DNA from: a virus
IMG/VR virus record: IMGVR_UViG_3300047667_001188
Span: 1-31,136 of that record
Strand: one strand, 5' to 3'
DNA length: 31,136 nucleotides
How positions within the stretch are numbered: the stretch's first letter is position 1; each line of letters starts with the position of its first letter. The notes under the pieces were generated by a model, which was given only the letters and a program-made list of their open reading frames with translations, searched no databases and was not told the origin of the DNA. The position numbers were made by a program, and so were the translations under genes. Shown here piece after piece: positions 1,870 through 18,153 of this stretch.

Positions 1870-1949
1870 TTGCACTTATAGCGTTAACCGCTATCTATAT
1901 TTCATATCGAAAGACAAACCCCTGACCTTATTGAACAAGGATCTAAGCA
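1870..1949. promoter_or_regulatory. Divergent promoter region with a TAGC-N7-GCTA operator
   Basis: The operator TAGC-GTTAACC-GCTA lies at 1879-1893. Rightward, TTGCAC (1870-1875), 16 bp and TATCTA (1892-1897) form a promoter for the gene at 1950. Leftward, the operator runs into TATAAG (1880-1875 on the minus strand), a good -10 for the terminase genes, although its -35 is weak. The rightward leader has a small CCTT/AAGG hairpin around an ATTGAAC loop (about 1927-1941), which loosely resembles the GGGC/GCCC leader hairpins found elsewhere. This site belongs to the shared operator family described in the findings. Confidence 0.6.
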
Positions 1950-4290: not shown

Positions 4291-4397
4291 TATCATTTGA
4301 CGCTATAAAGTAGCATTATTCGCTTTACAGCTGCGCCTGCAATCGCTATCTGTGGTTTGTAAGGCAATGAAGCCTATCCGAACAAAGGAACAAACCA
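4291..4397 (+). promoter_or_regulatory. Promoter with two operators and 5' leader hairpin
   Basis: TTTACA (4324-4329), 17 bp and TATCTG (4347-4352) form the rightward promoter. Two operator-like sites lie upstream: TATC-ATTTGAC-GCTA at 4291-4305, which runs into TATAAAG, and TAGC-ATTATTC-GCTT at 4311-4325, which overlaps the -35. The predicted start is near 4359. A hairpin with AGGC/GCCT arms and AATGAA loop (4362-4375) begins about 4 nt later, and AAAGGAAC gives the ribosome site for the ATG at 4398. The leftward ParB/methyltransferase gene must also start from this region, but I could not fix its -35. Confidence 0.7.
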
Positions 4398-4613
4398 ATG
4401 AAAACCGAAATCACCATCCGCTTTAACGACGCAGCGACAGCGAACCGCTTTACCGATACGATCCTGATCGAAGCAGAACGCCAAACCATCAGCTGGCTGT
4501 GCGGCGGGTTTTACTTTACCACCGAGCGCGACGCTTTCGCCTTCATGGCCGATATCGCATCCGAAGGGTTTTGCCTCAACGACTTCGACAGCATCGAATT
4601 TAAAAACGCCTAA
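4398..4613 (+). CDS. Small hypothetical protein
   Basis: The predicted protein has 71 residues (MKTEITIRFNDAATANRF...). It is acidic, with alternating strand-like segments, and no family is recognised. An AAAGGA ribosome site precedes the ATG. It is the first gene behind the promoter and hairpin leader at 4324-4375. Confidence 0.7.
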   Translation: MKTEITIRFNDAATANRFTDTILIEAERQTISWLCGGFYFTTERDAFAFMADIASEGFCLNDFDSIEFKNA

Positions 4614-4637
4614 ACCCAAATCAGAAGGATCAAGACC

Positions 4638-4859
4638 ATGCACATCGCAACAGTCACAGCATATGAAGCCAAAGACGGCACATTCAGCATCGCAATGCGT
4701 AACGAAGTGAGCGGCGAGATTGTGCGTGCCTATGGTTACGCTGATCTTTCTTCATCCACCTACGCCGCAAAGATGCTGGCATGGGATGCGCTTGGCCTTG
4801 TCAAATATGCAAAACTAAACCGCAAAGGCGAATATCTCGCCAATGTCTGGAAGCAGTAA
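4638..4859 (+). CDS. Small hypothetical protein
   Basis: The predicted protein has 73 residues (MHIATVTAYEAKDGTFS...). A clear AGAAGGA ribosome site lies before the ATG, 24 nt after the previous gene, so the two are probably co-transcribed. The N-terminal half looks like a short beta sheet and the C-terminal half is helical. No family is recognised. Confidence 0.7.
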   Translation: MHIATVTAYEAKDGTFSIAMRNEVSGEIVRAYGYADLSSSTYAAKMLAWDALGLVKYAKLNRKGEYLANVWKQ

Positions 4860-4953
4860 GTGCTGATGTGTTTGGATTTGTTCGGGACACATAGTGTCTT
4901 CGGCACCATGTCAACAGCAATGGGTTGTGTCAATACAAACGTGAAAGCCATAG

Positions 4954-4979
4954 ATGTAGCGAATAACTGCATTTTTTTT
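4954..4979 (+). terminator. Probable intrinsic terminator
   Basis: ATGTAG (4954-4959) pairs with CTGCAT (4967-4972) across a 7-nt loop, with one G-U pair, and is followed directly by eight T residues. The stem is AT-rich, so efficiency is uncertain. It would end the 4398-4859 transcript just before the next promoter (-35 at 4989). The rest of the gap from 4860 shows only a short GACAC/GTGTC palindrome at about 4888 and no gene. Confidence 0.6.
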
Positions 4980-4988
4980 CGATTTAGG

Positions 4989-5060
4989 TTGCAATAGGTA
5001 TCTAAACTCGCTACCTATGACATATCGGGCAATGAAGCCTAGCTGATCTGGGAGATCAAA
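4989..5060 (+). promoter_or_regulatory. Promoter with operator and 5' hairpin leader
   Basis: TTGCAA (4989-4994), 17 bp and TACCTA (5012-5017) form the promoter. The operator TATC-TAAACTC-GCTA (4999-5013) sits in the standard position, and a wider perfect palindrome ATAGGTA/TACCTAT (4994-5000 and 5012-5018) surrounds it. The predicted start is about 5024. The hairpin GGGC-AATGAA-GCCT (5027-5040) follows, then GGGAGATCAAA before the ATG at 5061. Confidence 0.75.
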
Positions 5061-5204
5061 ATGTCCTACGAAATAAAAGTCAAAACAATGCGCGGATTTA
5101 AGGTCAAGCACACAGTCGACACTGTGGGGGAAGCCGCAAAGATTGTGCGCGACTATTCAAACGATGGCATCCGCGCTATTGCTGCCCCCACCAACGGGCA
5201 ATGA
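5061..5204 (+). CDS. Small hypothetical protein, 47 residues
   Basis: The protein starts MSYEIKVKTMRGF and ends AAPTNGQ. It is basic at the N-terminus, with a helix in the middle, and no family is recognised. The ribosome site GGGAGAT is strong and the gene follows a well-formed promoter and leader hairpin. Its TGA stop falls inside the loop of the next copy of the hairpin (5196-5209), so translation of this gene and formation of that hairpin are mutually exclusive. Confidence 0.75.
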   Translation: MSYEIKVKTMRGFKVKHTVDTVGEAAKIVRDYSNDGIRAIAAPTNGQ

Positions 5205-5229
5205 AGCCCACCGAACTTGGAGATATTAA
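5196..5229 (+). promoter_or_regulatory. Intergenic GGGC-AATGAA-GCCC hairpin and ribosome site without a promoter
   Basis: A perfect copy of the leader hairpin (arms 5196-5199 and 5206-5209, loop AATGAA) is followed by CACCGAACTTGGAGATATTAA before the ATG at 5230. Unlike the other copies it lacks an upstream -35/-10 and operator: the preceding sequence is coding. The stop codon of the 47-residue gene is in the loop. This suggests that the hairpin has a function of its own, such as an RNA-binding site, a processing site or translation control. Confidence 0.7.
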
Positions 5230-5679
5230 ATGGCAAACTCATATGAAACCGAAACATGCACCCGCTGCTCAGGTGGTGGTCACTATTCCTACAACCAGAT
5301 GACCGGATCCATCTGCTTCAAGTGCGGCGGCAATGGCCTTCAATTCACCAAGCGCGGCAAGGCGACGCTAATGTTTGCCGAGTCCATCATGGCGGTCCTT
5401 GGATCTGACATCAAAGTTGGCGACGTTATTCGGATCGGAAACAAAGGCCAGATCACAGTCCAGTCACTTGAGTTGGTTGACGGGATGCGGTTCAGATCAG
5501 GGCCGGACGCCGAATGGAAAACCCTCTTGAGAGTGGTTGCCACTGGGCCGAACTTCTCGCGCGAATTTGACGCAGGAGCGACCTACAAGCGCCTACTGAC
5601 TGCGGAGGAAGCCCAGCAGGTCAGTGATTATCAAGACAATCTGACAAAGGCGGGCAAGCCGCGCAAGACACCGGCCTGA
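5230..5679 (+). CDS. DnaJ-type zinc-finger small protein
   Basis: The predicted protein has 149 residues. Two CxxCxGxG motifs, CTRCSGGG (about 9-16) and CFKCGGNG (about 30-37), form a single DnaJ-like zinc-binding unit at the N-terminus. The rest has a beta-rich section (DVIRIGNKGQITVQSLE) and a basic tail. There is no J domain, so it is not a DnaJ homologue. Such fingers bind protein or nucleic acid. The ribosome site TTGGAGAT follows the hairpin at 5196-5209. The function is unknown. Confidence 0.75.
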   Translation: MANSYETETCTRCSGGGHYSYNQMTGSICFKCGGNGLQFTKRGKATLMFAESIMAVLGSDIKVGDVIRIGNKGQITVQSLELVDGMRFRSGPDAEWKTLLRVVATGPNFSREFDAGATYKRLLTAEEAQQVSDYQDNLTKAGKPRKTPA

Positions 5680-5693
5680 ACCCACCCCATCAA

Positions 5694-5716
5694 CCAAGGG
5701 GGCTGCGGCCCCCCCA
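5694..5716. other. GC-rich hairpin between genes
   Basis: A GGGGGC run pairs with GCCCCC across a very short loop between the genes ending at 5679 and starting at 5735. There is no T-run, so it is not a typical intrinsic terminator. It may stabilise mRNA or limit readthrough. Confidence 0.5.
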
Positions 5717-5734
5717 CAACCGGAGACCACCACA

Positions 5735-5941
5735 ATGACCGCACTTGAAATTATCCGCGACCTCAAGAAAAATCGCAAAAACGTTTTGTGGATCAACGAG
5801 GATCGCCGCGAGGCTGCCCACCTTACCTTTGCAGGCGGTCGGTCAATCACTGTCAGCTTTGGTGCGGCAATGATTGCCAAGAGTGACCCCGCAATCAATG
5901 TTCACGGAATTCAAGACGGCACGATTTACGCCGCAATTTAA
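5735..5941 (+). CDS. Small hypothetical protein
   Basis: The predicted protein has 68 residues (MTALEIIRDLKKNRKNVLW...). An N-terminal amphipathic helix rich in lysine is followed by beta-like sequence. A CGGAGA ribosome site lies upstream. No family is recognised. It is probably in one transcript with the zinc-finger gene before it. Confidence 0.65.
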   Translation: MTALEIIRDLKKNRKNVLWINEDRREAAHLTFAGGRSITVSFGAAMIAKSDPAINVHGIQDGTIYAAI

Positions 5942-5995
5942 GCAACAGGCGGCGGCGTAAAGCCCTGCCCACCAACGCAAACACAGGAGACCATC

Positions 5996-6133
5996 ATGAC
6001 CCGAAAATAGTTGCCGCTTAAAAAAACGGCCGCGCAAATGGGTTACACAATATCAGGGAAAGCCACCGGAGTAAGGCTTGACGGCAGGGAGAGCACCGCA
6101 CCACGCAACACATCAGAAAGGCCAAAACCATGA
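5996..6133 (+). pseudogene. Small ORF interrupted by an amber codon after four residues
   Basis: CAGGAGACCATC provides a good ribosome site for ATG-ACC-CGA-AAA, but TAG follows at 6008-6010. The frame then stays open for 40 codons (LPLKKTAAQMGYTISG...) and ends in TGA, overlapping the ATG of the next gene at 6130. The intact overlap and good ribosome site suggest a recently broken gene. Alternatives are restart at the TTG at 6011, a functional minimal ORF, or a sequence error. Confidence 0.45.
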
Positions 6134-6306
6134 ACGTAGCAGTCTTAGTTATCATCCTTCACGGGCAAGTCACATGCGCCCCACAGATCAGAGACGTCGA
6201 CCTGATTCCAGAAACCGCAGACGCTTACTGCATTATGCCAGATCGGGCACCTTTGACCTCACCCCGCCCAGTGGCTCGGCCGGAAATTGGAAGTGAAACC
6301 CCATAA
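6130..6306 (+). CDS. Small hypothetical protein with hydrophobic N-terminus
   Basis: The predicted protein has 58 residues. It opens with MNVAVLVIILHG, a short hydrophobic stretch that could be a weak signal or anchor, followed by polar and proline-rich sequence. AGAAAGG precedes the ATG. It overlaps the previous frame by ATGA and the next by one base (TAATG). This overlap pattern supports this frame over the longer alternative frame beginning at 6078. No family is recognised. Confidence 0.55.
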   Translation: MNVAVLVIILHGQVTCAPQIRDVDLIPETADAYCIMPDRAPLTSPRPVARPEIGSETP

Positions 6307-6620
6307 TGCTTACCATACATCACCACGCGTTCCACGAAGGCCACAAAGCCGCATCTAATGGGTGCGGGATCGAGGCCAACCCTTACTGGACCGCTGACGG
6401 TAAAGTGTCAGCTGGCCAACGTGAGCAAGCAGATCAATGGAAAGCAGGTTGGCAGGATTATCGCGCTACTGGCAACCCGACAAACAAAGACGCGATGAAG
6501 GCGCTTCAGACGCTTCATCTGTACTACTCGAAACCCGCAATGACTGTCCCCGCCGCGATGCACGCCATCCTTGGCAAGAGCTTCGCAGACGCAATCGCAA
6601 CCGACCCATTTAAGGATTGA
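6306..6620 (+). CDS. Small protein with RMF-like module
   Basis: The predicted protein has 104 residues. Positions 9-57 read FHEGHKAASNG...NPYW...ADQWKAGWQDY, which follows the pattern of ribosome modulation factor (GY-A--G------CPY------WL-GW). A similar module ends the RecT-like protein at 19532-20518. In free-standing RMF this fold binds 30S ribosomes and drives dimerisation into inactive 100S particles. Whether the phage module does so is unknown. The C-terminal half is unassigned. Confidence 0.65.
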   Translation: MLTIHHHAFHEGHKAASNGCGIEANPYWTADGKVSAGQREQADQWKAGWQDYRATGNPTNKDAMKALQTLHLYYSKPAMTVPAAMHAILGKSFADAIATDPFKD

Positions 6621-6623
6621 GCC

Positions 6624-6977
6624 ATGCCAAATGATCTCCCAAAATATGACAGCCTTCCGCCACTCAGCCCAGCGCACAAGCCAAGCGCAAACCTTGTAGA
6701 TCGCCAAGACGCAGCATGGGCCAAGATGCTCAAGCCAATTGATACAAAGCGCGTAAGTTGCTGCGAGTACCTTGGCCTTACTGCTGATAAAATAGACGCC
6801 TTGTCGCCTCACAAGCCAACGCCGACAATCTCGCAAATGTCAGACCTGCACGAGCGCCAAGTATTCGCAGACAGCGCCGAACGCTTGATCAACAAAGCCT
6901 TGGCTTTTTTCCTGACCGTCTTGGCCGTCCTGTTTGTCGGCGGGATGATCTACCGCAGATTTGTGTGGGGGCATTGA
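6624..6977 (+). CDS. Hypothetical protein with C-terminal membrane segment
   Basis: The predicted protein has 117 residues. The N-terminal 85 are soluble and proline-rich. One strongly hydrophobic segment (ALAFFLTVLAVLFVGGMIY, about 92-110) lies near the end, followed by a short basic tail, as in tail-anchored proteins. The gene lies 3 nt after the RMF-like gene, so it is in the same operon. The function is unknown. Confidence 0.7.
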   Translation: MPNDLPKYDSLPPLSPAHKPSANLVDRQDAAWAKMLKPIDTKRVSCCEYLGLTADKIDALSPHKPTPTISQMSDLHERQVFADSAERLINKALAFFLTVLAVLFVGGMIYRRFVWGH

Positions 6978-6978
6978 T

Positions 6979-7377
6979 ATGACCGACGCACCAGAAACAA
7001 TATGGGCCGGACCCTCAGAAGACGATAAGGGCGTCTTTTGGGACGTAGGGCATTGGGATGCAGATTTTGACAAAGACTGCATTGAATACACCCGCACCGA
7101 CAAAGCCCAAGCGCAGGTTGAAGGCTTCCAAGAACGCATTTCAGAGCTTGTAGCCTTATTGGATCAACAGCTTGGCACGCCTTGCGAAGCGATACGCCAC
7201 GCGCAGGAAATAGAGGAATCCCAAGCGCGGATTGCTGAATTTAAGGTAACGCTGGAATGGTACGCTGCGCACGTTGCAGACTGCCGCAAGCTAGGTCGCG
7301 ATGGTGACGTAGCACGCGGGAAGCTGGACCGCGACGGCGGCACTAAAGCCCGCGAAGCCCTGAAGGTGACATCATGA
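6979..7377 (+). CDS. Hypothetical protein, partly coiled coil
   Basis: The predicted protein has 132 residues. The N-terminus (APETIWAGPSEDDKG...) resembles a short domain often seen in small phage proteins, and residues 45-90 are helical with a coiled-coil look. I chose the ATG at 6979, one base after the previous stop, over an upstream TTG. It overlaps the next gene by ATGA. Confidence 0.65.
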   Translation: MTDAPETIWAGPSEDDKGVFWDVGHWDADFDKDCIEYTRTDKAQAQVEGFQERISELVALLDQQLGTPCEAIRHAQEIEESQARIAEFKVTLEWYAAHVADCRKLGRDGDVARGKLDRDGGTKAREALKVTS

Positions 7378-7706
7378 GTATGCGTGACAAGATTGCCAAG
7401 ATTATTTGGGACTATGGCATTCATGAGAACTACCACCAAGCAGCAGCCGCCGCTATCCTAGCCGCCCTGCCTGACATGATTGCGCCGCTGGTTTGGGTGA
7501 CGTCTAAAAATGGCAACGCCCTCAAAACAAAGATGAGTCTTGGTATCCAATACAGGATGCAAGTGGCCCTGTCGGGTCGCGTGATGTGGAGCGTGAATAC
7601 TGTTAAGGGGTGGCACAATGCAGCGGACAAGTTTGAAGCAGCGGACCACATCGACGCCCACCACCGCAACGCTATCATGGCAGAACTAACGGGGGTGGCA
7701 TCATGA
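7374..7706 (+). CDS. Hypothetical protein
   Basis: The predicted protein has 110 residues (MSMRDKIAKIIWDYG...). A helical N-terminus with an alanine run is followed by a beta-like part. It overlaps both neighbours by ATGA, which indicates translational coupling through three genes. No family is recognised. Confidence 0.65.
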   Translation: MSMRDKIAKIIWDYGIHENYHQAAAAAILAALPDMIAPLVWVTSKNGNALKTKMSLGIQYRMQVALSGRVMWSVNTVKGWHNAADKFEAADHIDAHHRNAIMAELTGVAS

Positions 7707-7993
7707 CCGAGAACCCTTGGAACGTTGCATCCCAGCGAGATACCACCGACCTGACAGATGCCAAACTGGCCGCCCGTCGCTGCATCGACACATACTTCAG
7801 GCGTCGCGGCCAGATTATCGGCAGCACCGCTCAGTCCCTATTTGTAGCCGGTGGCCCAGAGCTTTTCGACTGGATCTCCAAGCAAACGCCTAAAGGATCG
7901 ACTATCTCAGAGACCCTTGCCGCGATTGCTCTGGATGAAATGCGGAAGGAAAGCGACAAGGCCGATGCAACAAAAACTCAATCTGACCGTTGA
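7703..7993 (+). CDS. Hypothetical protein
   Basis: The predicted protein has 96 residues, mostly helical, with a charged C-terminus. It is the last gene of the coupled series and stops just before the promoter at 8000. No family is recognised. Confidence 0.65.
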   Translation: MTENPWNVASQRDTTDLTDAKLAARRCIDTYFRRRGQIIGSTAQSLFVAGGPELFDWISKQTPKGSTISETLAAIALDEMRKESDKADATKTQSDR

Positions 7994-7999
7994 TTATAT

Positions 8000-8070
8000 T
8001 TGCCATAAATAGCGATATTTGATATAGATTGATTATCGGGCAACGCAGCCCATCAAATTGGAGACATCTA
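8000..8070 (+). promoter_or_regulatory. Promoter with operator and 5' hairpin leader
   Basis: TTGCCA (8000-8005), 17 bp and TATAGA (8023-8028) form the promoter. The operator TAGC-GATATTT-GATA (8010-8024) ends in the -10 as in the other copies. The predicted start is near 8035, and the hairpin GGGC-AACGCA-GCCC is at 8038-8051. The loop differs from AATGAA but the stem is unchanged. TTGGAGAC precedes the ATG at 8071. Confidence 0.78.
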
Positions 8071-9534
8071 ATGAACGCACAAACCAAAATTGACCCGAAA
8101 ACGCAGGTTGCCACCCGCCTTCAAATCTCGGAGCTTTGCAAGTTCCGCGGCGAGGCTTTGGAGAAAATGCGCGAGAGTGCCGTTGCTCTGGACGCGGCAT
8201 ATGCGATCGGTGAAGAGGCATCAGCCAAGGCGAGGCGGGCCACAATGGGTCGCGGGATCGGCGGGGCCCTGTACGCCTCAGAGCACGACACAGCCTATGG
8301 TGCGCTTTTCAAGAGCAGCAAGTTTGACGTCGAGGCCAGCATGGAGAGTTACCGCAAAAATCTGGACCGTGGCGTCTGGACCCAGCTGCTCGAAACCACC
8401 GGCATCCAGACGATGATGGACGCAACGGCGCTGAAGGAATTGCGGGCGTCCATCAGTGACGATGTTCCAGAGGCTTCAGAGGCAAACGTCAGGGCGACAA
8501 TCGAGACGCTTTTTGCCGACGCCGATATGATCTTCAGTCGCGGTCTTGTGAATTGCTTTGCCAAACTGGACCGGCGCTTCAAGAGCCACGACGGCTTCAA
8601 GATCGGCGGCCGCATCATTATCGACCGCGCCTTCAGTGAAATGTTCGGCAGCACCAACTACGGATCCACTTGGGACACGATTGCAGATGTCGAGCGGGTG
8701 CTTGCCGTGCTGGACGATAAAAACCCTGAAGGCAGCTCAGTGCTGCGGGCCAAGGTCGACGCTGACCGGACAAAGAATTACGGCCCCATGCAGTCGAAAA
8801 CTGAGACGGACTATTTCAGAATCGACGGCTTCAAAAACGGCAACGCGCACCTTTGGTTCACTCGTGACGATCTTGTCAAAAAGGCCAACCAAATCCTCGG
8901 CGATCACTATGGCGAAGTGCTGCCAGACGCCTATCAGGGCGGCGATGACAGCGACCTGTTCAATAAGTCCAACGTGCCGGCCAAGGATCTGCAGTTCTAC
9001 CCGACACCATCGCCCGCGGTTAATGTCTTGCTGGACCGGCTCCACCTGTCGGAAGGCGCGAAAGTTCTGGAACCTTCAGCCGGTCAGGGGGCTATTGTCT
9101 TAGAAGCCGCACGCCTCGGCGCCAAAGTGACCGCAATCGAGATCAACCCCGATCACTGCGCGGTGCTCAAGAGCAGGGCGTCACAGATGGCGGGCAACGG
9201 GTCCATACGCTTGAAACAAGCCAATTTCCTTGCTGTCACGCCATCCCCCACATTCGACTTTGTTCTGATGAACCCGCCCTTCTATGGCACGCACTACATG
9301 GACCACGTAAAGCACGCATTCGAGTTCCTGAGCGATGGCGGCATGCTGAGGGCGATCCTGCCAGCATCGGCAGAGGTCAACGAGAGCCGCAAGCACAGCG
9401 CCTTCCGCAAGTGGGCGATGGAGCATAATGATCTGGGCTGGGCTGGGCCATTCCGCGACCTTCCTGCCGAAAGCTTCAAGGATAGCGGCACGATGATCCA
9501 GACGGTTGTGCTGCACCTTCGTAAGCGTCGTTAA
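8071..9534 (+). CDS. DUF4942 / N6-adenine DNA methyltransferase
   Basis: The predicted protein has 487 residues. The long N-terminal part (1-300) matches the DUF4942 type. It is followed by a class I methyltransferase domain with motif I VLEPSAGQGAI (about 332-342) and the catalytic NPPF motif (401-404) of N6-adenine enzymes. It is probably a second phage methyltransferase for protection from host restriction. The ATG at 8071 is chosen for the TTGGAGA site directly after the leader hairpin; the longer frame from 8029 would put the hairpin inside the coding region. Confidence 0.85.
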   Translation: MNAQTKIDPKTQVATRLQISELCKFRGEALEKMRESAVALDAAYAIGEEASAKARRATMGRGIGGALYASEHDTAYGALFKSSKFDVEASMESYRKNLDRGVWTQLLETTGIQTMMDATALKELRASISDDVPEASEANVRATIETLFADADMIFSRGLVNCFAKLDRRFKSHDGFKIGGRIIIDRAFSEMFGSTNYGSTWDTIADVERVLAVLDDKNPEGSSVLRAKVDADRTKNYGPMQSKTETDYFRIDGFKNGNAHLWFTRDDLVKKANQILGDHYGEVLPDAYQGGDDSDLFNKSNVPAKDLQFYPTPSPAVNVLLDRLHLSEGAKVLEPSAGQGAIVLEAARLGAKVTAIEINPDHCAVLKSRASQMAGNGSIRLKQANFLAVTPSPTFDFVLMNPPFYGTHYMDHVKHAFEFLSDGGMLRAILPASAEVNESRKHSAFRKWAMEHNDLGWAGPFRDLPAESFKDSGTMIQTVVLHLRKRR

Positions 9535-9541
9535 AAAAAAT

Positions 9542-9566
9542 GCAGTGCAATGTCGATTTGCACTGT
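9542..9566 (-). terminator. Hairpin with T-run on the minus strand
   Basis: CAGTGCAA (9543-9550) pairs with TTGCACTG (9558-9565). Read on the minus strand the stem is followed by CATTTTTTTT, the form of an intrinsic terminator. No leftward gene ends here, so it would stop antisense transcripts entering the methyltransferase gene. The right arm also overlaps the -35 of the rightward promoter. Confidence 0.5.
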
Positions 9567-9636
9567 ACGCCAGATATCATTTAACGCTATGAATAGTTAT
9601 CGGGCAATGAAGCCCACCAACATTGGAGACTACAAA
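9564..9636 (+). promoter_or_regulatory. Promoter with operator and 5' hairpin leader
   Basis: TGTACG (9564-9569), 18 bp and TATGAA (9588-9593) form the promoter. The operator is TATC-ATTTAAC-GCTA (9575-9589). The predicted start is near 9600, with the perfect hairpin GGGC-AATGAA-GCCC at 9602-9615 and TTGGAGAC before the ATG at 9637. The spacer is one base longer than usual. Confidence 0.72.
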
Positions 9637-9882
9637 ATGTCAGTTTACACCCACAAAACCCGCGACACACACGAGCCTTGCACCTTCGTCAAAATGATTG
9701 TGACCGATGCGCCGCTCGAAGATCTGAACCTGTCGGATGACTGGTTCGAAATTGATCCACAAGAGGTTGCCGACATCGAGGCGCTGACCGGCATGGATTA
9801 CGCGGATGCCGATGGCTACGCGCATGTGATGACAGAATTTACAAACGGCGGCGATAAAGTCCGCAAATATGGGAGGCTCTAA
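9637..9882 (+). CDS. Small acidic hypothetical protein
   Basis: The predicted protein has 81 residues (MSVYTHKTRDTHEP...). It is rich in aspartate and glutamate in its second half. The ATG at 9637 follows the hairpin leader and a GGAGA site; upstream in-frame starts would include the leader. It overlaps the next gene by one base (TAATG). No family is recognised. Confidence 0.7.
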   Translation: MSVYTHKTRDTHEPCTFVKMIVTDAPLEDLNLSDDWFEIDPQEVADIEALTGMDYADADGYAHVMTEFTNGGDKVRKYGRL

Positions 9883-10490
9883 TGAGCATTACATTCGAAC
9901 AGTTTCTACTCAGCAAGCACATCGGCAAAGCCAACATTTACTACTGCGGCGGGGCCTTGGTGATATTCAAGCCAGCCGCCAACGAGGGTGATTTTCAGTA
10001 CGCGCTTGAGTCAGATGGCATCATGGTCATGATCGACCAGCTGCACGTCTTGGAGCGACGCCTATATGACGACCTTGGGTTTGAATATGATCCGTCTACT
10101 TTCGGCGTCTTTGATCCAGAGCAGCAATATGCAGGTCGAGGCACCCACGCTGGCATGATTGCTCTGCTCGGTGATTATTGCAATTTCTACGGCATCACCG
10201 CGCGATCAGCAAACGAGCTGGCTGACGAACCGGCGCTGCACGAATGGCACCATGTCTGGTTCCAAAACTTCGTGACGGTCTGGCATAACATTCCAGCGGT
10301 TGAGATCGTGGCAAAGCCATACAAATGGGTCTGCGGCAGGTGTGGCAAACAGTCGATATACTGGGAGGCCTCAGCCTACTGGGACACCGAAACGCAGAAG
10401 CTCAAAATGAGTGATGGATTTAATGAATGGCACCAGAATTTCTGCGGCGACTGCGGCGCTGGTGGTGAAGCCAAGAAAGTGGAGATTTAG
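9882..10490 (+). CDS. Hypothetical protein with C-terminal zinc ribbon
   Basis: The predicted protein has 202 residues. The first 145 have no recognised domain. The C-terminus has CGRCGK (about 152-157) and FCGDCG (about 189-194), a four-cysteine zinc ribbon. A short GGGAGGCT site precedes the ATG. The function is unknown; a nucleic-acid or protein contact is possible. Confidence 0.7.
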   Translation: MSITFEQFLLSKHIGKANIYYCGGALVIFKPAANEGDFQYALESDGIMVMIDQLHVLERRLYDDLGFEYDPSTFGVFDPEQQYAGRGTHAGMIALLGDYCNFYGITARSANELADEPALHEWHHVWFQNFVTVWHNIPAVEIVAKPYKWVCGRCGKQSIYWEASAYWDTETQKLKMSDGFNEWHQNFCGDCGAGGEAKKVEI

Positions 10491-10492
10491 AA

Positions 10493-10738
10493 ATGCCAAA
10501 ATTTGAAGTGCAAGTGGGTCGCGATGCTCGTGTTTATTACACGGCGACGATTGAAGCCGAGAGCTTGGAAGCAGCAAAAGCCTTGAACGGACGTCACGGG
10601 TTTGACGCGCCAAAAGGCACCGTATGGAACAAAGATGGATTGGATGAATTCGACAACGTGGAGACTGTCAACATTTACGATCCAGACACAGCTGAAATGT
10701 TCGCGACGTACACCAGTGGCGATGGTTGGGAGGAATAA
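10493..10738 (+). CDS. Small acidic hypothetical protein
   Basis: The predicted protein has 81 residues. The N-terminal pattern (MPKFEVQVGRDARVYYTATIEA followed by SLEAAK) is a beta-beta-alpha arrangement seen in many small phage proteins of unknown role. GTGGAGAT precedes the ATG, and the spacing to both neighbours is tight. Confidence 0.7.
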   Translation: MPKFEVQVGRDARVYYTATIEAESLEAAKALNGRHGFDAPKGTVWNKDGLDEFDNVETVNIYDPDTAEMFATYTSGDGWEE

Positions 10739-10739
10739 A

Positions 10740-10922
10740 ATGACCAATGAAACCGAGCAGAGATTGAAGCAGCTAAAATTGGAGCGTGAAAGCTACCATT
10801 GGCGCTGGAAGCAACTGAACCCCAGATCAAGACGCGCCATTGCATTGAGCACGCTTGTGCGGGACCGGACGGCTCAAATCTTAAAGCTTGGAAGTCCTAA
10901 CCTAGCGTTGCCAAAATCATGA
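10740..10922 (+). CDS. Small basic hypothetical protein
   Basis: The predicted protein has 60 residues (MTNETEQRLKQLKLERES...). It is helical and strongly basic, starting one base after the previous stop with GGGAGGAATAAA as ribosome site. It overlaps the next gene by ATGA. No family is recognised. Confidence 0.6.
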   Translation: MTNETEQRLKQLKLERESYHWRWKQLNPRSRRAIALSTLVRDRTAQILKLGSPNLALPKS

Positions 10923-11347
10923 CTGAGTTTGCCCCACATGGCGGGTCTTACGACAGCGGCCACCCTTGGTATTACAAGCTGGGTGGCCGAATCCTAACGC
11001 CGGAAGAGATCATCGATCAGGCTCGGAACGATCTGGCCAAGCGTCACTTCGTCCAGCAGTACGCCAAGTTTGACCGGATGGACGAGCCGAGGCGGTCCAT
11101 TGAAATTGCAGAAACGATCAAGTCGATTGAATACGTCATGCAGGCTTATATCGCTCGATATCTGGAATGCGTGGCCGAGATCAAAACGCTGCGAACTGTC
11201 TTCGGCCCGTGGCCATTCGATCAGGTCAAAGAGACCTACAACGAGCCCAACACAGCGATTAGCTTGAGGCACAACCACATCAGCTACGCGGCCGCGCAGA
11301 TCAAGGCTCTCAGGTCATTTCAGACGCAGGGCGATCTTTTTGGATGA
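10919..11347 (+). CDS. Hypothetical protein
   Basis: The predicted protein has 142 residues. The aromatic N-terminus (MTEFAPHGGSYDSGHPWYYK) is followed by mostly helical sequence. It is the last gene before the next promoter (-35 at 11363). No family is recognised. Confidence 0.65.
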   Translation: MTEFAPHGGSYDSGHPWYYKLGGRILTPEEIIDQARNDLAKRHFVQQYAKFDRMDEPRRSIEIAETIKSIEYVMQAYIARYLECVAEIKTLRTVFGPWPFDQVKETYNEPNTAISLRHNHISYAAAQIKALRSFQTQGDLFG

Positions 11348-11362
11348 AGTGTCGATTTTCAC

Positions 11363-11433
11363 TTTACAGCGATAGCCATAAACGCTACAAATAGTTTAAG
11401 GGCAATGAAGCCCAACCGATCAGGAGATTAAAA
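11363..11433 (+). promoter_or_regulatory. Promoter with operator and 5' hairpin leader
   Basis: TTTACA (11363-11368), 17 bp and TACAAA (11386-11391) form the promoter. The operator is TAGC-CATAAAC-GCTA (11373-11387). The predicted start is near 11398, the hairpin GGGC-AATGAA-GCCC is at 11400-11413, and CAGGAGAT precedes the ATG at 11434. An AAGTG/CACTT inverted repeat lies across the -35. From CATAAACGCTAC to the ribosome site this copy is nearly identical to the one at 12115. Confidence 0.8.
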
Positions 11434-11868
11434 ATGAAACCGACAATCGTAAGCGTAGAATACTCCGAAGCTGGCGGCGCCCTTACATCGGGAGCCGTCA
11501 TGGACTTCACAGCATTCGAGGCCGAGGCCCTGAAGGCCGCTCTGGGCCACAAAGGCGGGGGCTACCTCAAGACGGGAGTGTCTGTCCACTTTGATACCGG
11601 CGACACCTACGCATGCCGGTTGGATCTCGGTGACGAAGAATCGGGCTTTGCTGACGGCATGCGCAACCGGATCAAATTCCACGAAAGCGTTGTTGGCCAG
11701 CAGAAGTTATTTGAGGCTCCGAAACTGATACGCGAAGGCCAAGAAGAGCTGTACGCCCTATGGATCCAGATGGACTTTTCACCGGACATGGCGTGGTGCA
11801 CTTGGGAGATCCAAGGCCTTCGCCAGCCGGTCGACACCATCTTTTGCACCGCAACAACCCGCCACTAG
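11434..11868 (+). CDS. Hypothetical protein, possibly LPD25-like
   Basis: The predicted protein has 144 residues. The first 90 (VSVEYSEAGGAL...DTGDTYACRLDLG) resemble the LPD25 type of small phage/plasmid domain, which is found alone or in large polyvalent proteins and has no established activity. The resemblance is from memory of the pattern and should be treated as tentative. The remainder is unassigned. It is the first gene behind the promoter at 11363. Confidence 0.6.
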   Translation: MKPTIVSVEYSEAGGALTSGAVMDFTAFEAEALKAALGHKGGGYLKTGVSVHFDTGDTYACRLDLGDEESGFADGMRNRIKFHESVVGQQKLFEAPKLIREGQEELYALWIQMDFSPDMAWCTWEIQGLRQPVDTIFCTATTRH

Positions 11869-11878
11869 GAGAGAGCCA

Positions 11879-12088
11879 ATGCCAAAATTCAACCGCACCG
11901 CCACTGTCGAATTCGCGATCTTAGGATCTGAGCAGAACGTCACCGTCAGCAACCTGCCCTACGTCTGGGATAGCGACGAGGGCCCGCACATCGATCAGCA
12001 GGCAGTCTTCGATGCTATCGCCTACCTGCGCGATCTGGGCGTCGAGGGAGGGCTTGGCACGGTCTCAGTTTTGACCAGCAGTCGTTAA
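11879..12088 (+). CDS. Small hypothetical protein
   Basis: The predicted protein has 69 residues (MPKFNRTATVEFAILG...). It is acidic, beta-rich at the N-terminus and helical after. A TAGGAGAG site precedes the ATG. It is probably co-transcribed with the gene before it and ends just ahead of the next promoter. Confidence 0.65.
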   Translation: MPKFNRTATVEFAILGSEQNVTVSNLPYVWDSDEGPHIDQQAVFDAIAYLRDLGVEGGLGTVSVLTSSR

Positions 12089-12114
12089 AAATTGTCTCGC
12101 ATGTCGTTTTTCTC

Positions 12115-12185
12115 TGTACAACAATATCCATAAACGCTACAAATAGTTTAAGGGCAACGAAGCCCCAACTGATCAGGAGATCAAA
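12115..12185 (+). promoter_or_regulatory. Promoter with operator and 5' hairpin leader
   Basis: TGTACA (12115-12120), 17 bp and TACAAA (12138-12143) form the promoter. The operator is TATC-CATAAAC-GCTA (12125-12139). The predicted start is near 12150, the hairpin GGGC-AACGAA-GCCC is at 12152-12165, and CAGGAGAT lies before the ATG at 12186. The loop has C where most copies have T. Confidence 0.8.
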
Positions 12186-12623
12186 ATGACAAACGTAGCA
12201 AAATTCAAACTCGGCGCACTGCTTCACAGCTTCCCAGCTTGGGACATCTACGAAGCCAAGCCGCGCCTACACGTTTACCTTCTTGTTTCGCGACCAATAT
12301 TCATGGCTGGCGATGTCGTTGGCATCCCTTACGAGACAGCGCGACACGGCACCCTGCACCACTGGTTTAGTTTCAACTCGGTCGTCAGCTATGCCTTGGA
12401 GTATCGCGAGGATCCGATCGCTGCGTACAGCAAAGCCTTGGAGCGCGGCCACCCAACCCACTGGGTCAACACCATACCGACAGTTTTGACCAGCGACACG
12501 CAGGACAAAGAAAACCGCGTTTCGGTTAACTGGGGTGATGAAGTGATCTTTGAAGGCAAGCTCTTCAAAATCGCCAAAGCCCCGAACGATAACGCCACCC
12601 TAATTGGAGCAATCTATGACTGA
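12186..12623 (+). CDS. Hypothetical protein
   Basis: The predicted protein has 145 residues (MTNVAKFKLGALLHSF...). The C-terminal third (RVSVNWGDEVIFEGKLFKIA) is beta-like. No family is recognised. It overlaps the next gene by 8 nt. Confidence 0.65.
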   Translation: MTNVAKFKLGALLHSFPAWDIYEAKPRLHVYLLVSRPIFMAGDVVGIPYETARHGTLHHWFSFNSVVSYALEYREDPIAAYSKALERGHPTHWVNTIPTVLTSDTQDKENRVSVNWGDEVIFEGKLFKIAKAPNDNATLIGAIYD

Positions 12624-12972
12624 CAGACGCACAATCATGAACGAAATCACGGCCGATCCGGTCGCCGCCTTTATCGAGCACGGCGGCGGCGATGACGACA
12701 CGGCGCTGCAGGAATTGCCAAACCATATGAGAGGGGGAATCGTGAGGTATGTCTTGCTTGGCATCCCGACCGGATCTTTTCTGAAGGCCGTTTTTAGCTT
12801 CGACGATGAATTTGCGGCGCACAAGGCCGGTTCCAGAAACCTACCGCACCTTGATGCCTTCTTTGAATTTGTGGAAAACGAATGCCCCGCGGACTGCCAA
12901 GGATCTGCCGATGTGGTCGGCAAGTGGAGCAATCAAAACGGGCTTCTGCAGTTGGAGCAAAGCGATGACTGA
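12616..12972 (+). CDS. Acidic hypothetical protein
   Basis: The predicted protein has 118 residues (MTDRRTIMNEITADPV...). It is acidic with two cysteines near the C-terminus. The ATG at 12616 has TTGGAGC upstream and overlaps the previous gene. No family is recognised. Confidence 0.6.
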   Translation: MTDRRTIMNEITADPVAAFIEHGGGDDDTALQELPNHMRGGIVRYVLLGIPTGSFLKAVFSFDDEFAAHKAGSRNLPHLDAFFEFVENECPADCQGSADVVGKWSNQNGLLQLEQSDD

Positions 12973-13093
12973 TCAGCGCAAAAATATCGGGGACAAAGTT
13001 AAGCCGACAACTCCGCCCCCCCCCACAACACCCAACCACCCACAAAACAGCTTAAACGCAACACAAGCCCCGATTTGGCGGCGCAGGAGTTAA
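12965..13093 (+). CDS. Short proline-rich ORF with C9 tract
   Basis: The predicted protein has 42 residues (MTDQRKNIGDKVKPTT, then a proline/threonine stretch). It overlaps the end of the previous gene by 8 nt and ends 3 nt before the next start. A run of nine C residues at about 13016-13024 encodes the prolines and is prone to slippage. It may be a real small protein or only a leader to the HTH gene. Confidence 0.4.
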   Translation: MTDQRKNIGDKVKPTTPPPPTTPNHPQNSLNATQAPIWRRRS

Positions 13094-13096
13094 AAT

Positions 13097-13495
13097 ATGA
13101 CCAACGACACATCAACGCCGGAAGGCTTTCGACAGGCGCGGGAGGATTTGGGTCTTTCAGTCGCCCAAGTCGCCCGCTTACTTCAAACCAACGAACGCAC
13201 AGTGAAGCGATGGGAGTCATCTGATGACCGGATGGTGCACCCGACTGCCGCGATGGTGATGGACTGGTTTGCAGGCGGCTTCCGCCCACCAGAATGGCCG
13301 GAGAAAATGACTGGAAACGAAATGCTTGATATCCGCTGCGGCATGATGATGTCAGTCAGCCAGATGGGCGAACTTCTGGACGTCGAAGATGACACGATCC
13401 TGAAATGGGAAAGCGATAACCGAGGCCCACCCGCTATAGTTCAGCAGGCCTTGACTTGGCTGCAATCCGGTGACGTTCCAGCGGGCTTATACTAG
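13097..13495 (+). CDS. Tandem helix-turn-helix regulator
   Basis: The 132-residue protein has two XRE-like HTH units: residues about 8-38 (GLSVAQVARLLQTNERTVKRWES) and 75-105 (MSVSQMGELLDVEDDTILKWES). Both end in the same W-E-S signature, suggesting an internal duplication. A single chain with two HTH units could bind an inverted repeat without dimerising, so it is a second candidate for the shared operator. The GCAGGAGTTAAAAT site is clear. Confidence 0.75.
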   Translation: MTNDTSTPEGFRQAREDLGLSVAQVARLLQTNERTVKRWESSDDRMVHPTAAMVMDWFAGGFRPPEWPEKMTGNEMLDIRCGMMMSVSQMGELLDVEDDTILKWESDNRGPPAIVQQALTWLQSGDVPAGLY

Positions 13496-13544
13496 CCAAG
13501 GGCGAGGATCTGGAAGCAGACTTGGATTGAAAAATGATCTTCGC

Positions 13545-13646
13545 TTGATTAGGGAAGCATTTGGCGCTATCCCTAAATAAATGGGGTCGGAGCGTTGACG
13601 CGCTACCGACCCCGATTGAAACCTTGATGCGACCAAGAGGACAACC
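13545..13646 (+). promoter_or_regulatory. Promoter with operator and large 5' hairpin before the replication genes
   Basis: TTGATT (13545-13550), 17 bp and TATCCC (13568-13573) form the promoter. The operator-like AAGC-ATTTGGC-GCTA (13555-13569) is in the standard position. The predicted start is near 13580. Instead of GGGC/GCCC, the leader has GGGGTCGG (13583-13590) pairing with CCGACCCC (13606-13613), extended by AGCG/CGCT inside with one bulged A. AGAGGA gives the ribosome site for the ATG at 13647. There is no T-run after the hairpin, so it is unlikely to be a terminator. Confidence 0.7.
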
Positions 13647-13706
13647 ATGAACTCAGTTCTTAAACAAATAATCTCTCTGCATCAAGCGTGGCATGCTCAG
13701 TTATGA
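13647..13706 (+). CDS. 19-residue leader peptide
   Basis: The peptide reads MNSVLKQIISLHQAWHAQL, with AGAGGACAACC before the ATG. Its TGA overlaps the ATG of the next gene (ATGA at 13703-13706). The good ribosome site and the overlap suggest that its translation feeds ribosomes to the DUF1376-HNH gene, which has no good site of its own. It could also be an attenuator peptide working with the hairpin above. Confidence 0.55.
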   Translation: MNSVLKQIISLHQAWHAQL

Positions 13707-14221
13707 GTATTGTCCACATCGCCTTTTATCCATCTGATTGGCTTGCTGGAACTCGTGGCCTGTCTGATGTTGAAACCGGCGTCTATATCACCCTGATCTG
13801 CAAGATGTACGAAATGGCCGGACCCATCGAACGTGATGACGATCGATTGTGGCGGGTCTGCGGATGCAAGAGCAAAGCCGCCTACCTAAAGTCGTTTGAT
13901 TACCTTGTTTCTCAAGGCATGGTTGTCCAAGTCGGGAGATTACTATCCTCAGATCGTTTGCGTAAGAGATGGCTTTCTTTTGACAGAGCGCAGATCCAGC
14001 GTCCAAGTTTGCCAGAAAGCGTTCGAGCATATGTAATTAATCGTGACGAAAAGTGTTGTCGATACTGTGGCAGTAATACTGGGCCTTTTGAGATCGATCA
14101 CGTCTTCCCTTGGTCTCGGGGTGGATCAGATACTCCGGAAAATCTTGTTGTGGCTTGCCAGACTTGCAACCGAAGTAAGGGTTCGAAGCTCCTGTCGGAA
14201 TGGTTGGAGGTGATGAATTGA
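13703..14221 (+). CDS. DUF1376-type replication domain fused to HNH nuclease
   Basis: The predicted protein has 172 residues. Residues 1-95 (IAFYPSDWLAGTRGLSDVE...) match the DUF1376 type found in phage replication proteins. Residues 107-170 form an HNH domain: CRYC (about 118-121), IDH with the catalytic histidine (about 131-133), CQTCNRSKG (about 152-160). The fusion is unusual: the HNH part may be a captured homing-type nuclease or a nicking function for replication. The start is the ATG coupled to the leader peptide; a GTG at 13688 is possible. The second replication protein follows with overlap. Confidence 0.8.
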   Translation: MSIVHIAFYPSDWLAGTRGLSDVETGVYITLICKMYEMAGPIERDDDRLWRVCGCKSKAAYLKSFDYLVSQGMVVQVGRLLSSDRLRKRWLSFDRAQIQRPSLPESVRAYVINRDEKCCRYCGSNTGPFEIDHVFPWSRGGSDTPENLVVACQTCNRSKGSKLLSEWLEVMN

Positions 14222-15036
14222 AACGCGTTTGGTACAAGCACTTCCCATCTGATTGGCGGTCAGACGTTCTGCTAAGGCAAGTGTCACGCGCTGCCCGATC
14301 GTTCTGGCTGGATTGCATCGGCCTGATGTACGAAGGCAATTCTCACAGGCTGGAAATTGGCGGCGAGCCGATGTCAGTTCAGCAAATATCTGCAGCTCTC
14401 GGAGACAACCCAAGAACGGTAAGAAAGCTCTTGGCTGAGTTGACTGACATGGGGGTATGCACCGTCGATGATGATGGTTTCGTCACTTCTAGACGCATAT
14501 CTCGCGAGTTTGAAAAGGCTGAAAAAGACCAAACAAATGGTCGAAAGGGTGGCAATCCAGCTTTAATAATAAAGGAAAATGACAAAAGCAGGGTTAACCC
14601 CCCCCTTAAAGCCCAGAACCAAGAACCAGAACCAGAAGAAGAGAAGAAAGCTTATGCACCGTTGGCTGAAGCCAAAGGTGCCGACGAAGCTCCTGCCGAT
14701 ATCCCTTCAAAGCCGAAGAAAACCCCAAGCCGTGGAACCCGTCTAAGCGCAGAATGGTATTTGCCAAAAGCGTGGGGTGACTGGGCTTTGGATGCTGGGG
14801 CATCAATGGAAATGGTCAGGCTCGAATCTGATGTTTTCAAAGATCACTGGCTTGCGAAATCTGGAAAAGATGGAACGAAAGCCGACTGGCTTGCGACTTG
14901 GCGGAATTGGATCCGCCGAGCAATCGAACGAAATGGAGGAACCACAAATGGATCGAATTCCCGTAACTCAACTGAGCGCTCTGAGCGAATACTCGGAGCA
15001 GCAGCGGCAGGCACAACTGCCAAAGAATGGGGGTGA
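14218..15036 (+). CDS. Replication initiator-like protein, DUF1376/O-like
   Basis: The predicted protein has 272 residues. It opens with a segment like that of the gene before it (FPSDWRSD...SFWLDCIGLMYE), followed by a winged-helix-like region (VQQISAALGDNPRTVRKLLAEL), a charged linker rich in P/E/K, and a C-terminal helical domain (LPKAWGDWALDAGAS...WLATWRNWIRRAIE) like those in phage O/DnaT proteins that contact helicase or loader. A TTG start at 14218 is proposed because GGAGGTGA lies directly upstream; the ATG at 14200 would bury this site. Confidence 0.75.
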   Translation: MKRVWYKHFPSDWRSDVLLRQVSRAARSFWLDCIGLMYEGNSHRLEIGGEPMSVQQISAALGDNPRTVRKLLAELTDMGVCTVDDDGFVTSRRISREFEKAEKDQTNGRKGGNPALIIKENDKSRVNPPLKAQNQEPEPEEEKKAYAPLAEAKGADEAPADIPSKPKKTPSRGTRLSAEWYLPKAWGDWALDAGASMEMVRLESDVFKDHWLAKSGKDGTKADWLATWRNWIRRAIERNGGTTNGSNSRNSTERSERILGAAAAGTTAKEWG

Positions 15037-15039
15037 TCT

Positions 15040-15537
15040 ATGACAAGCCTCATCCCAACTTCAGGCTTTGGCGCATTGTCCGAACAGCAGCAGGCGGATC
15101 ATCGTCTGAAGGTCGGCATTCGGGTCAGGGCGATACTCTCAGGGTTCTGGGTGGATCACGACACCATTGACGCTCAACAGGCGATGGAAGTCGAAGGCTG
15201 GGTCGATGTCCTTGAGCAATGCTCTCACTCGGAGATCCGGTATGCGTGGCGGGATTACCAGACAGACCGCAAGAACCGCACTGAGCGCGGTCGACTTGCC
15301 AAGCCAGATGCCGGCGCCCTGTTCCGCATAATTCTGTCCAAGCGGACGCAAGCCCCAAGTCAGAAGGCCGTCGAAAAGCGCGAGACGATTGCTGAGGATC
15401 GAGTGGATCGAGCGCGGGCCCAGCAGATATTGGACGAGAAAGGATTTAACAGTTTCAGCGGTTTCGGCACGGTCCCTGTAAAGGGCTTTCCGAGATCGCC
15501 AATCACACCGAAGTCACACCTGAAGGGGGAAGAATAG
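15040..15537 (+). CDS. Hypothetical protein of the replication block
   Basis: The predicted protein has 165 residues. Residues 20-100 are helical with many tryptophan and arginine residues, and the C-terminal third is low in structure. It follows the replication protein by 3 nt and is probably co-expressed, so a helper role in replication is possible. No family is recognised. Confidence 0.65.
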   Translation: MTSLIPTSGFGALSEQQQADHRLKVGIRVRAILSGFWVDHDTIDAQQAMEVEGWVDVLEQCSHSEIRYAWRDYQTDRKNRTERGRLAKPDAGALFRIILSKRTQAPSQKAVEKRETIAEDRVDRARAQQILDEKGFNSFSGFGTVPVKGFPRSPITPKSHLKGEE

Positions 15538-15705
15538 ATGATTACGAAAGAAGGCGCTTCAAGAGCCGGTTTGACACTGCGCGAGGCGTGCGCCGTTGCT
15601 TGGTGTGCGAAGGCAATGGGTGATCTTATAGATCATCCCAAGGCGGTTGCGATGGGTGCGGATGAGCTTGCAAAATGGCTAACAGCACCAACGGAGGGCG
15701 AATAA
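15538..15705 (+). CDS. Small hypothetical protein, 55 residues
   Basis: MITKEGASRAGLTLREACAV begins a helical protein with two cysteines. The ATG follows the previous TAG directly (GGGGGAAGAATAGATG), and its own end has the related junction GAGGGCGAATAAATG. No family is recognised. Confidence 0.6.
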   Translation: MITKEGASRAGLTLREACAVAWCAKAMGDLIDHPKAVAMGADELAKWLTAPTEGE

Positions 15706-16089
15706 ATGCACGCATCCATGTTTCCAAAAACAATCGCCAAGCCGTTTGACATGCCATTCCGCGCCTCGCTGATCGAGGATTTGGTTGGCAAAGCAATCCG
15801 AAAATCCGTGCGCAATGAGGCTTCGAAAAATGCCGACGGCATGCAGCACCGAAGATACATCAGTGCGGAAGCCCTTCAAGCACGTCGCGCAAATGTCCTC
15901 AGCGTTTTGCGTGATTTAGGCCGATCGTTCCCGAAAGATGTCTCTGATCAAATCCCAAAGGAAAAGCTGGAAGTTGTGTATAACGATATCCTCCTGCACT
16001 TCAAAAAGGGTATCGTGAATCGGGAGAAGATGTCGCGCTCAGATGGAGGCATTGCGTATATTTACTGGGCCATTGATGAACGGGAATGA
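15706..16089 (+). CDS. Hypothetical basic protein
   Basis: The predicted protein has 127 residues. It is basic and helical (RASLIEDLVGKAIRKSVRNEAS...). The start is adjacent to the previous stop with GGAGGGCG as ribosome site. It overlaps the next gene by 14 nt. No family is recognised. Confidence 0.6.
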   Translation: MHASMFPKTIAKPFDMPFRASLIEDLVGKAIRKSVRNEASKNADGMQHRRYISAEALQARRANVLSVLRDLGRSFPKDVSDQIPKEKLEVVYNDILLHFKKGIVNREKMSRSDGGIAYIYWAIDERE

Positions 16090-16351
16090 TCTTTTCATCT
16101 GCGAAGCTTGCGGCGGGGTCGAGCCTGACACATGCCCCAAGTGCCCGCAGGTGGAAAAGCCTACCGGCGTGACGGTAGCGGCGATCAAAAAACACCTTGA
16201 GGCCGCTACCAATCGAACAGCCATTGAGACAACGCGAACGCATTACGCCCGCCACGTCGCCACACTGCGCAAGAAGGGCGGCGAGGCAAAGACAATGGCC
16301 ATCCAGATCGATGGGCTGGTTTTATATCTCAGGAATGGAGTTTTGAAATGA
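16076..16351 (+). CDS. Zinc-ribbon small protein
   Basis: The predicted protein has 91 residues. CEAC (about 9-12) and CPKC (about 19-22) at the N-terminus form a short four-cysteine zinc knuckle. The rest is helical and basic (VAAIKKHLEAATNRT...ARHVATLRKKGG), suggesting nucleic-acid binding. The ATG at 16076 is the closest start before the cysteines. It overlaps the next gene by ATGA. Confidence 0.65.
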   Translation: MNGNDLFICEACGGVEPDTCPKCPQVEKPTGVTVAAIKKHLEAATNRTAIETTRTHYARHVATLRKKGGEAKTMAIQIDGLVLYLRNGVLK

Positions 16352-16578
16352 AGTGGAACGGTGAAACTGAAAGTCAGTGGTTGGACCGATACAGTAAGGG
16401 GTTGCAGTGCTGGGCGTACTTTCCAAGGCAAATGAACTGCGGAACATGGGTATGGTGGGAGTATTACTGGTCTGGCCTACACAGTGGCGTGAACAACAAA
16501 AAATGGTGGGTCAGCGCGTTAAGACGTGAAGACTGTTTGCAAAAAGGCCCAACCACACCACCGCCGCCGAAGCGTTAA
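16348..16578 (+). CDS. Tryptophan-rich small protein
   Basis: The predicted protein has 76 residues with ten tryptophans, most in the first 52 (WAYFPRQMNCGTWVWWEYYW). The tail is proline-rich. It is translationally coupled to the gene before it by ATGA. No family is recognised. Confidence 0.6.
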   Translation: MKWNGETESQWLDRYSKGLQCWAYFPRQMNCGTWVWWEYYWSGLHSGVNNKKWWVSALRREDCLQKGPTTPPPPKR

Positions 16579-16598
16579 ACGAGAATGGAGCCAAGAGA

Positions 16599-17777: not shown

Positions 17778-17779
17778 GC

Positions 17780-18139: not shown

Positions 18140-18153
18140 TGGTTTGATCCTTG

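Follow-up and report, generated by a model that had tools for sequence, protein, structure and literature searches.

A small hairpin with a conserved loop start precedes genes of many unrelated phages and looks like an expression-enhancing leader element

IMG/VR virus record IMGVR_UViG_3300047667_001188 (31,136 bases, analysed at full length and called the window below) carries a small hairpin, GGGC-AAYGMA-GCCC in its basic form, ahead of several of its genes. The same small hairpin lies about 20 bases before the gene start in many unrelated phages, usually where transcription is predicted to begin, and is densest in the window phage. Its features suggest a so far undescribed element that is built into phage messages and boosts them, and not an accident. 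The reading preferred here, with a probability of about 0.5, is that a stem-loop like the one in the T7 gene 10 leader (T7g10) enhances phage gene expression, its core C-[A/G]AY-NNN-G being carried by a stem of four base pairs that covaries.

An exact scan of the window with the pattern [AG]GGC-AAYGMA-GCC[CT] identified seven perfect copies, all on the + strand and none on the - strand, versus 0.005 expected by chance in order-1 resamples, which rules out chance or base composition as their source. The window consensus is RGGCAAYGMAGCCY, 14 nucleotides (nt) long. A previous sequence-only reading of this DNA had listed six copies (4362, 5027, 8038, 9602, 11400 and 12152), all of which were recovered, but its total was too low, since a seventh perfect copy at 5196 had been missed. 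Its description of a stem that is kept while the loop varies was confirmed by the loops AATGAA, AACGCA and AACGAA, as was a compensating stem change, with AGGC pairing to GCCT at 4362. The copies are the following:

4362 to 4375, + strand: leader hairpin AGGC-AATGAA-GCCT (AGGCAATGAAGCCT) with a compensated outer pair, 22 nt before the ATG at 4398, with a Shine-Dalgarno (SD)-like AAAGGAA
5027 to 5040, + strand: leader hairpin GGGC-AATGAA-GCCT (GGGCAATGAAGCCT) with one G-U pair, 20 nt before the ATG at 5061
5196 to 5209, + strand: intercistronic hairpin GGGC-AATGAA-GCCC, 20 nt before the ATG at 5230, the loop holding the TGA stop of the open reading frame (ORF) 5061-5204
8038 to 8051, + strand: leader hairpin GGGC-AACGCA-GCCC (GGGCAACGCAGCCC), 19 nt before the ATG at 8071, kept at a Sulfitobacter prophage orthologue
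9602 to 9615, + strand: leader hairpin GGGC-AATGAA-GCCC (GGGCAATGAAGCCC), 21 nt before the ATG at 9637
11400 to 11413, + strand: leader hairpin GGGC-AATGAA-GCCC (GGGCAATGAAGCCC), 20 nt before the ATG at 11434
12152 to 12165, + strand: leader hairpin GGGC-AACGAA-GCCC (GGGCAACGAAGCCC), 20 nt before the ATG at 12186

The distance from the 3' end of the hairpin to the ATG is thus 22, 20, 20, 19, 21, 20 and 20 nt in coordinate order. A GGAGA ribosome site had been proposed behind every hairpin and was found by motif scan at six of the seven copies, but not at 4362, which has AAAGGAA:

5051 to 5055, + strand: GGAGA ribosome site
5219 to 5223, + strand: GGAGA ribosome site
8060 to 8064, + strand: GGAGA ribosome site
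9625 to 9629, + strand: GGAGA ribosome site
11423 to 11427, + strand: GGAGA ribosome site
12176 to 12180, + strand: GGAGA ribosome site

The predicted probability of the hairpin fold reaches 0.94-1.00 in five leaders and falls to 0.62 at 5027 and to 0.48 at 8038. Covariance models of Rfam release 15 gave no match at the hairpins (window searched with E up to 5), and megablast of window bases 6000-20000 against 50,697 phage records found no nucleotide relative.

Outside the window, the combination of GGGC-AAYGMA-GCCC with a GGAGA 3-14 nt behind it gave at least 120 matches in IMG/VR viral contigs, some of which fall in coding sequence and are due to chance. Most of the sites begin with a promoter-like stretch, often joined by a palindrome that resembles an operator (AGGGCCA-n-TGGCCCT, CGCTA types and others); the hairpin comes next, and GGAGA follows after a short spacer. 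A stricter pattern matched 28 times in 84,980 species genomes. These matches include prophage-like sites in Sulfitobacter, Roseovarius, Paracoccus, Kiloniella and Jiella, and most of the others look like chance. In Paracoccus phage vB_PkoS_Pkon1 a single copy was located at 44575 (minus strand); gene p72 starts 35 nt downstream of it and has an XRE regulator gene behind it. Among the papers searched, none prints either of the motif's two commonest forms.

The position of the hairpin is narrowly set in these phages as well. Its 3' end lies 19-21 nt before the start codon in 81/120 phage sites and 8-9 nt before GGAG in 72/120, and -10-like hexamers end most often 7-10 nt before it. By a crude rule applied to 122 phage sites, 93 were assigned as promoter-like and 13 as intercistronic-like. 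Six of these 13 are convincing (L009, L011, L027, L028, L112 and L140), and the others look like chance or misclassified sites. The modal spacing to the start codon in the intercistronic-like group is 20 nt, equal to that of promoter copies. The hairpin had been suggested to mark the extreme 5' end of each transcript, which fits the predicted 5'-proximal position of most copies, but cannot be upheld for every copy, because the copy at 5196 and these six in other phages are intercistronic at the same spacing. Most of the convincing intercistronic copies lie behind a GGGGCTTCGGCCCC hairpin. In five records (L009, L027, L028, L112 and L140) the copy is closely preceded by this hairpin together with an ACCCA stretch that is rich in C and lacks a T-run, perhaps a processing or 3'-end stabilising element.

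Conservation of the loop was assessed by an unbiased viral scan for any GGGC-N6-GCCC before GGAGA and ATG, which returned 121 distinct sites. AAT was the commonest loop start (22/121), GAT was found at 8 sites, and loops ending in ATT, which served as strand control, at only 3. The same scan of Rhodobacteraceae chromosomes gave AAT in 7/150 among the matches listed (counted by hand), at least two of them prophage-like, and the difference between these viral and chromosomal counts has a p of 3e-4. A host-chromosome element of general use was rejected on this low count in Rhodobacteraceae leaders and on the AAYGAA form, which occurs in only 2/200 genomes of the family of Jiella. A hairpin in the rplN leader of one genome was likewise dismissed as an incidental variant, other genomes showing freely differing stems and loops. 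The AAY class in phages includes AATCCC, AATCCT, AATTCC, AATCTT and others, and AAYGMA is therefore one form of a wider core, C-RAY-NNN-G; it is the form in the window phage and in most motif-bearing phages found. The last three loop bases vary freely from phage to phage, and loop dialects occur within single phages, such as AATCCT in L348, AATCAA in L245, AATCTT in L354 and RATGNA in L024.

Pairing of the stem was retested with the bait stem excluded, because the loci had been fetched by a fixed stem. Three complementary flanking pairs were present at 9/48 AAT cores compared with about 2.7% elsewhere, an 8-fold enrichment (p 6e-6, an optimistic value since AAT was singled out after looking), and RAY cores as a whole were paired in 16/236 versus 81/3140 (p 9e-4). 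An alignment of 30 hairpins has both-side changes at all four stem pairs; as these 30 had been chosen as hairpins, the test without the bait stem is the fair test of covariation. Stem swaps within the same phage were found in L245, L274, L300, L348 and L354. L024 shows them too, behind TATAAT promoters that are nearly identical; these promoters (TATAATGTAGCTAATG) lie on the - strand at several genes, and each passes directly into a hairpin resembling GGGG-GATGNA-CCCC and then an SD sequence.

The gene at 8071 has a 68% identical orthologue in prophage record G421, present also in Sulfitobacter genome G011. Both orthologues keep the hairpin, with the loop AACGCA in the window and AATGAA in the prophage, which differ only at the Y and M positions, whereas promoter and spacer differ. 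The leader of the window gene reads ATC-GGGCAACGCAGCCC-ATCAAATT-GGAGA and that of the G421 gene ACA-GGGCAATGAAGCCC-CGCCTTTTT-GGAGA. The proposal of a hairpin and ribosome-site cassette copied ahead of unrelated genes with its structure kept is supported.

Transcription from just upstream of the window hairpins is plausible from the sequence. By eye and simple score, -10-like hexamers end 8-9 nt upstream of the hairpin in the six promoter copies. The simple score placed them first or joint first at 4362, 8038, 11400 and 12152, whereas those at 5027 and 9602 were recognised by eye only. A strict sigma-70 consensus scan of the window listed none of the six, its total being not above shuffles, and the promoters are therefore predictions only. 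No promoter-like sequence was seen in front of the copy at 5196. The candidates are:

4324 to 4352, + strand: predicted promoter TTTACA-17-TATCTG, ending 9 nt before the hairpin at 4362 (sequence and simple score; not significant alone)
4989 to 5017, + strand: possible promoter TTGCAA-17-TACCTA, ending 9 nt before the hairpin at 5027 (by eye; the simple score ranked other hexamers first)
8000 to 8028, + strand: predicted promoter TTGCCA-17-TATAGA, ending 9 nt before the hairpin at 8038 (by eye and simple score)
9588 to 9593, + strand: possible -10 TATGAA with a poor -35, ending 8 nt before the hairpin at 9602 (by eye; not top in the simple score)
11363 to 11391, + strand: predicted promoter TTTACA-17-TACAAA, ending 8 nt before the hairpin at 11400 (by eye and simple score)
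12115 to 12143, + strand: predicted promoter TGTACA-17-TACAAA, ending 8 nt before the hairpin at 12152 (by eye and simple score)

CGCTA/TAGCG half-sites recur in the promoter regions of the window (1879-1893, 4301, 4344, 4957, 5009, 8010, 9585, 11383, 12135, 18410-18513 and 23620) and are possibly operators of a phage repressor. Two proteins are candidate regulators, one of the XRE type at 13097 and a weakly YdaS-like one at 18154-18375 on the - strand.

A hairpin about 20 nt before the start codon would sit near the upstream edge of the site of the initiating 30S subunit, and a translation standby element would fit the fixed spacing. We infer that the hairpin could also give the message a base-paired 5' boundary and thus slow 5'-dependent decay, and that it might keep the ribosome site free of pairing with upstream sequence, much as the T7 gene 10 leader stem-loop does. 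Insertion of the T7g10 stem-loop upstream of the SD sequence in C. necator increased a reporter by 1.5-3 fold and also the mRNA level (PMC6146998). The hairpins of the window and of the phage set resemble T7g10 as phage leader stem-loops upstream of an SD sequence, but they are 14 nt long with a conserved hexaloop start, are repeated in the genome and across unrelated phages, and are also intercistronic.

The closest described repeat is the Start-Associated Sequence (SAS/ESAS) of cluster K mycobacteriophages, a short asymmetric repeat found a little way ahead of many non-structural genes and in a single orientation; its outer part is complementary (GGG...CCC), the stop codon of the upstream gene can fall inside, and its function is unknown (PMC3203893). 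The 13-bp SAS consensus is GGGATAGGAGCCC, lies 3-7 bp from the start codon and contains the SD sequence itself (PMC3203893). The window hairpins share with SAS the repetition in one orientation before unrelated non-structural genes (seven copies, + strand only). However, their 14-nt consensus RGGCAAYGMAGCCY differs from GGGATAGGAGCCC, they are 19-22 nt away from the start codon, their SD sequence is separate, and their stem covaries. The stem-loops of the ompA/papA type are similar in that a 5'-proximal stem is expected to hinder RppH and RNase E, whereas some of the copies described here are not 5'-terminal. Stem-loops of this type are not known to be loop-specific repeats.

The preferred reading of a T7 gene 10-like enhancing leader is favoured by copies at predicted transcription-unit starts in different phages with different operators and by the finding that, in 11 records compared, only generic proteins are widely shared. 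Several points weigh against it. Most phages have only 1-3 copies, the ribosome binding site is not clearly open in the predicted folds (mean SD unpaired 0.18-0.63), and other folds compete with the hairpin at 5027 and 8038. Homologues that share 34-52% identity with the 8071 protein lack such a leader hairpin, so that the hairpin follows the leader context and not the gene. Finally, generic stabilisation leaves the loop constraint unexplained. As the loop start is conserved, either the folded shape matters or a factor present in many hosts reads the loop. A specific RNA-binding protein of host or phage that reads C-RAY-NNN-G and regulates phage genes at the level of translation or transcription is possible, if distinctly less probable, and would account for a loop start more conserved than a structural role needs, for the dialect shared by copies of one phage, and for a similar RAT-NNN hairpin in the spacer between host rpoA and rplQ. 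However, the last three loop bases are free across phages, and copying within a genome can equally yield a shared dialect. Moreover, clustering of the ORFs from 11 motif-bearing records, the window among them, gave a single cluster present in 10/11 records, a generic set of XRE-type helix-turn-helix proteins joined by single linkage, and the terminase-like proteins fell into different clusters. A phage-encoded partner common to all motif phages was rejected on this result and appears unlikely, bearing in mind that short or diverged proteins escape clustering.

Protection of the 5' end of the ompA kind, in which a stem at the terminus keeps off RppH and 5'-dependent RNase E, had been suggested for these hairpins. 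It agrees with the 5'-proximal position of most copies, predicted at 0-3 nt from the transcription start by the -10 spacing in the phage set, and with the preference of both enzymes for single-stranded 5' ends (PMC3997798). As the whole explanation it is unlikely, because it requires neither loop conservation, the AAY loop being over-constrained for it, nor a fixed distance to the start codon, and because intercistronic copies, including 5196, keep equal spacing, although processing could still expose these as new 5' ends. An element acting as DNA, belonging to a repressor operator or linking phage modules for recombination, might explain the near-identical sequence reused beside operator-like palindromes, but is highly improbable since the stem covaries with compensated changes, operators change between phages while the motif does not, and only one orientation relative to the gene occurs. 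Small 5'-proximal hairpins on phage transcripts also recall processive antitermination or pausing signals of the boxB or put kind at transcript starts. There is very little to be said for this, as a hexaloop AAYGMA is present and not the GNRA-like pentaloop of lambda-type boxB/nut (boxA was not searched for), and neither the fixed start-codon distance nor the short transcription units call for it.

The spacer hairpin of the host deserves a closer description. About 50/395 Rhodobacteraceae genomes carry GGGC-AAY-NNN-GCCC-CAAGGAGA, and 9/9 examined loci lie between rpoA and rplQ. With this tail, the loop often starts with AAT or GAT and the last three bases are free. The element is conserved across much of the family and had no Rfam match at this position in the loci scanned; it is possibly a ribosomal protein leader. 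It resembles the phage element in GGGC-[A/G]AT-NNN-GCCC followed by CAAGGAGAG, but is not the same leader, because no start codon directly follows; rplQ begins about 60-100 nt further on, with a second hairpin-like stretch in between. In the nine spacers (L409, L410, L413, L418, L422, L425, L428, L433 and L434), GGGC-AAT-NNN-GCCC-CAAGGAGA is followed by this second stretch, often CACGCATC, with variable flanks. The shared loop start hints that both elements have a property or factor in common. It might be speculated, with considerable doubt, that C-RAY-NNN-G hairpins are a widespread undescribed phage RNA element and that a conserved host factor, which may also act on the rpoA-rplQ message, reads its loop, so that unrelated phages would favour their own transcripts by one shared mark.

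The hairpin is a concrete, searchable RNA element common to many uncultivated phages, and the isolated phage Pkon1 as well as prophage-bearing hosts are available for testing. Should a factor read the loop, the hairpin would be a shared mark that determines how phage messages are treated; otherwise it would still offer a compact natural leader with which to express genes in alphaproteobacteria. It may also serve as a marker for locating phage promoters and gene starts.

Two further hairpins were noted in the window:

5698 to 5713, + strand: a different hairpin, GGGGGC-TGCG-GCCCCC, without the RAY loop, in an equivalent place 21 nt before the ATG at 5735
23655 to 23668, + strand: degenerate copy GGGC-AATGTA-GCCA (GGGCAATGTAGCCA), which runs into the start codon (pattern scan) and is probably decayed or due to chance

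Among the genes downstream of the perfect copies, 8071 encodes a DUF4942/methyltransferase protein and 11434 an LPD25-domain protein, and the 5230 protein has a weak anti-TRAP match (E 1e-4, below the curated cut-off); the others encode hypothetical proteins. A second phage group (L277, L284, L324 and L345) has a long hairpin abutting GGGCAATCYTGCCC ahead of the SD sequence; gammaproteobacterial phage DSL-LC05 is a DNA relative of L277, and the motif was not found in DSL-LC05. In L017, a partial inverted copy (GGGCTTCATT) lies directly before the true copy at 1647, as if duplicated by inversion.

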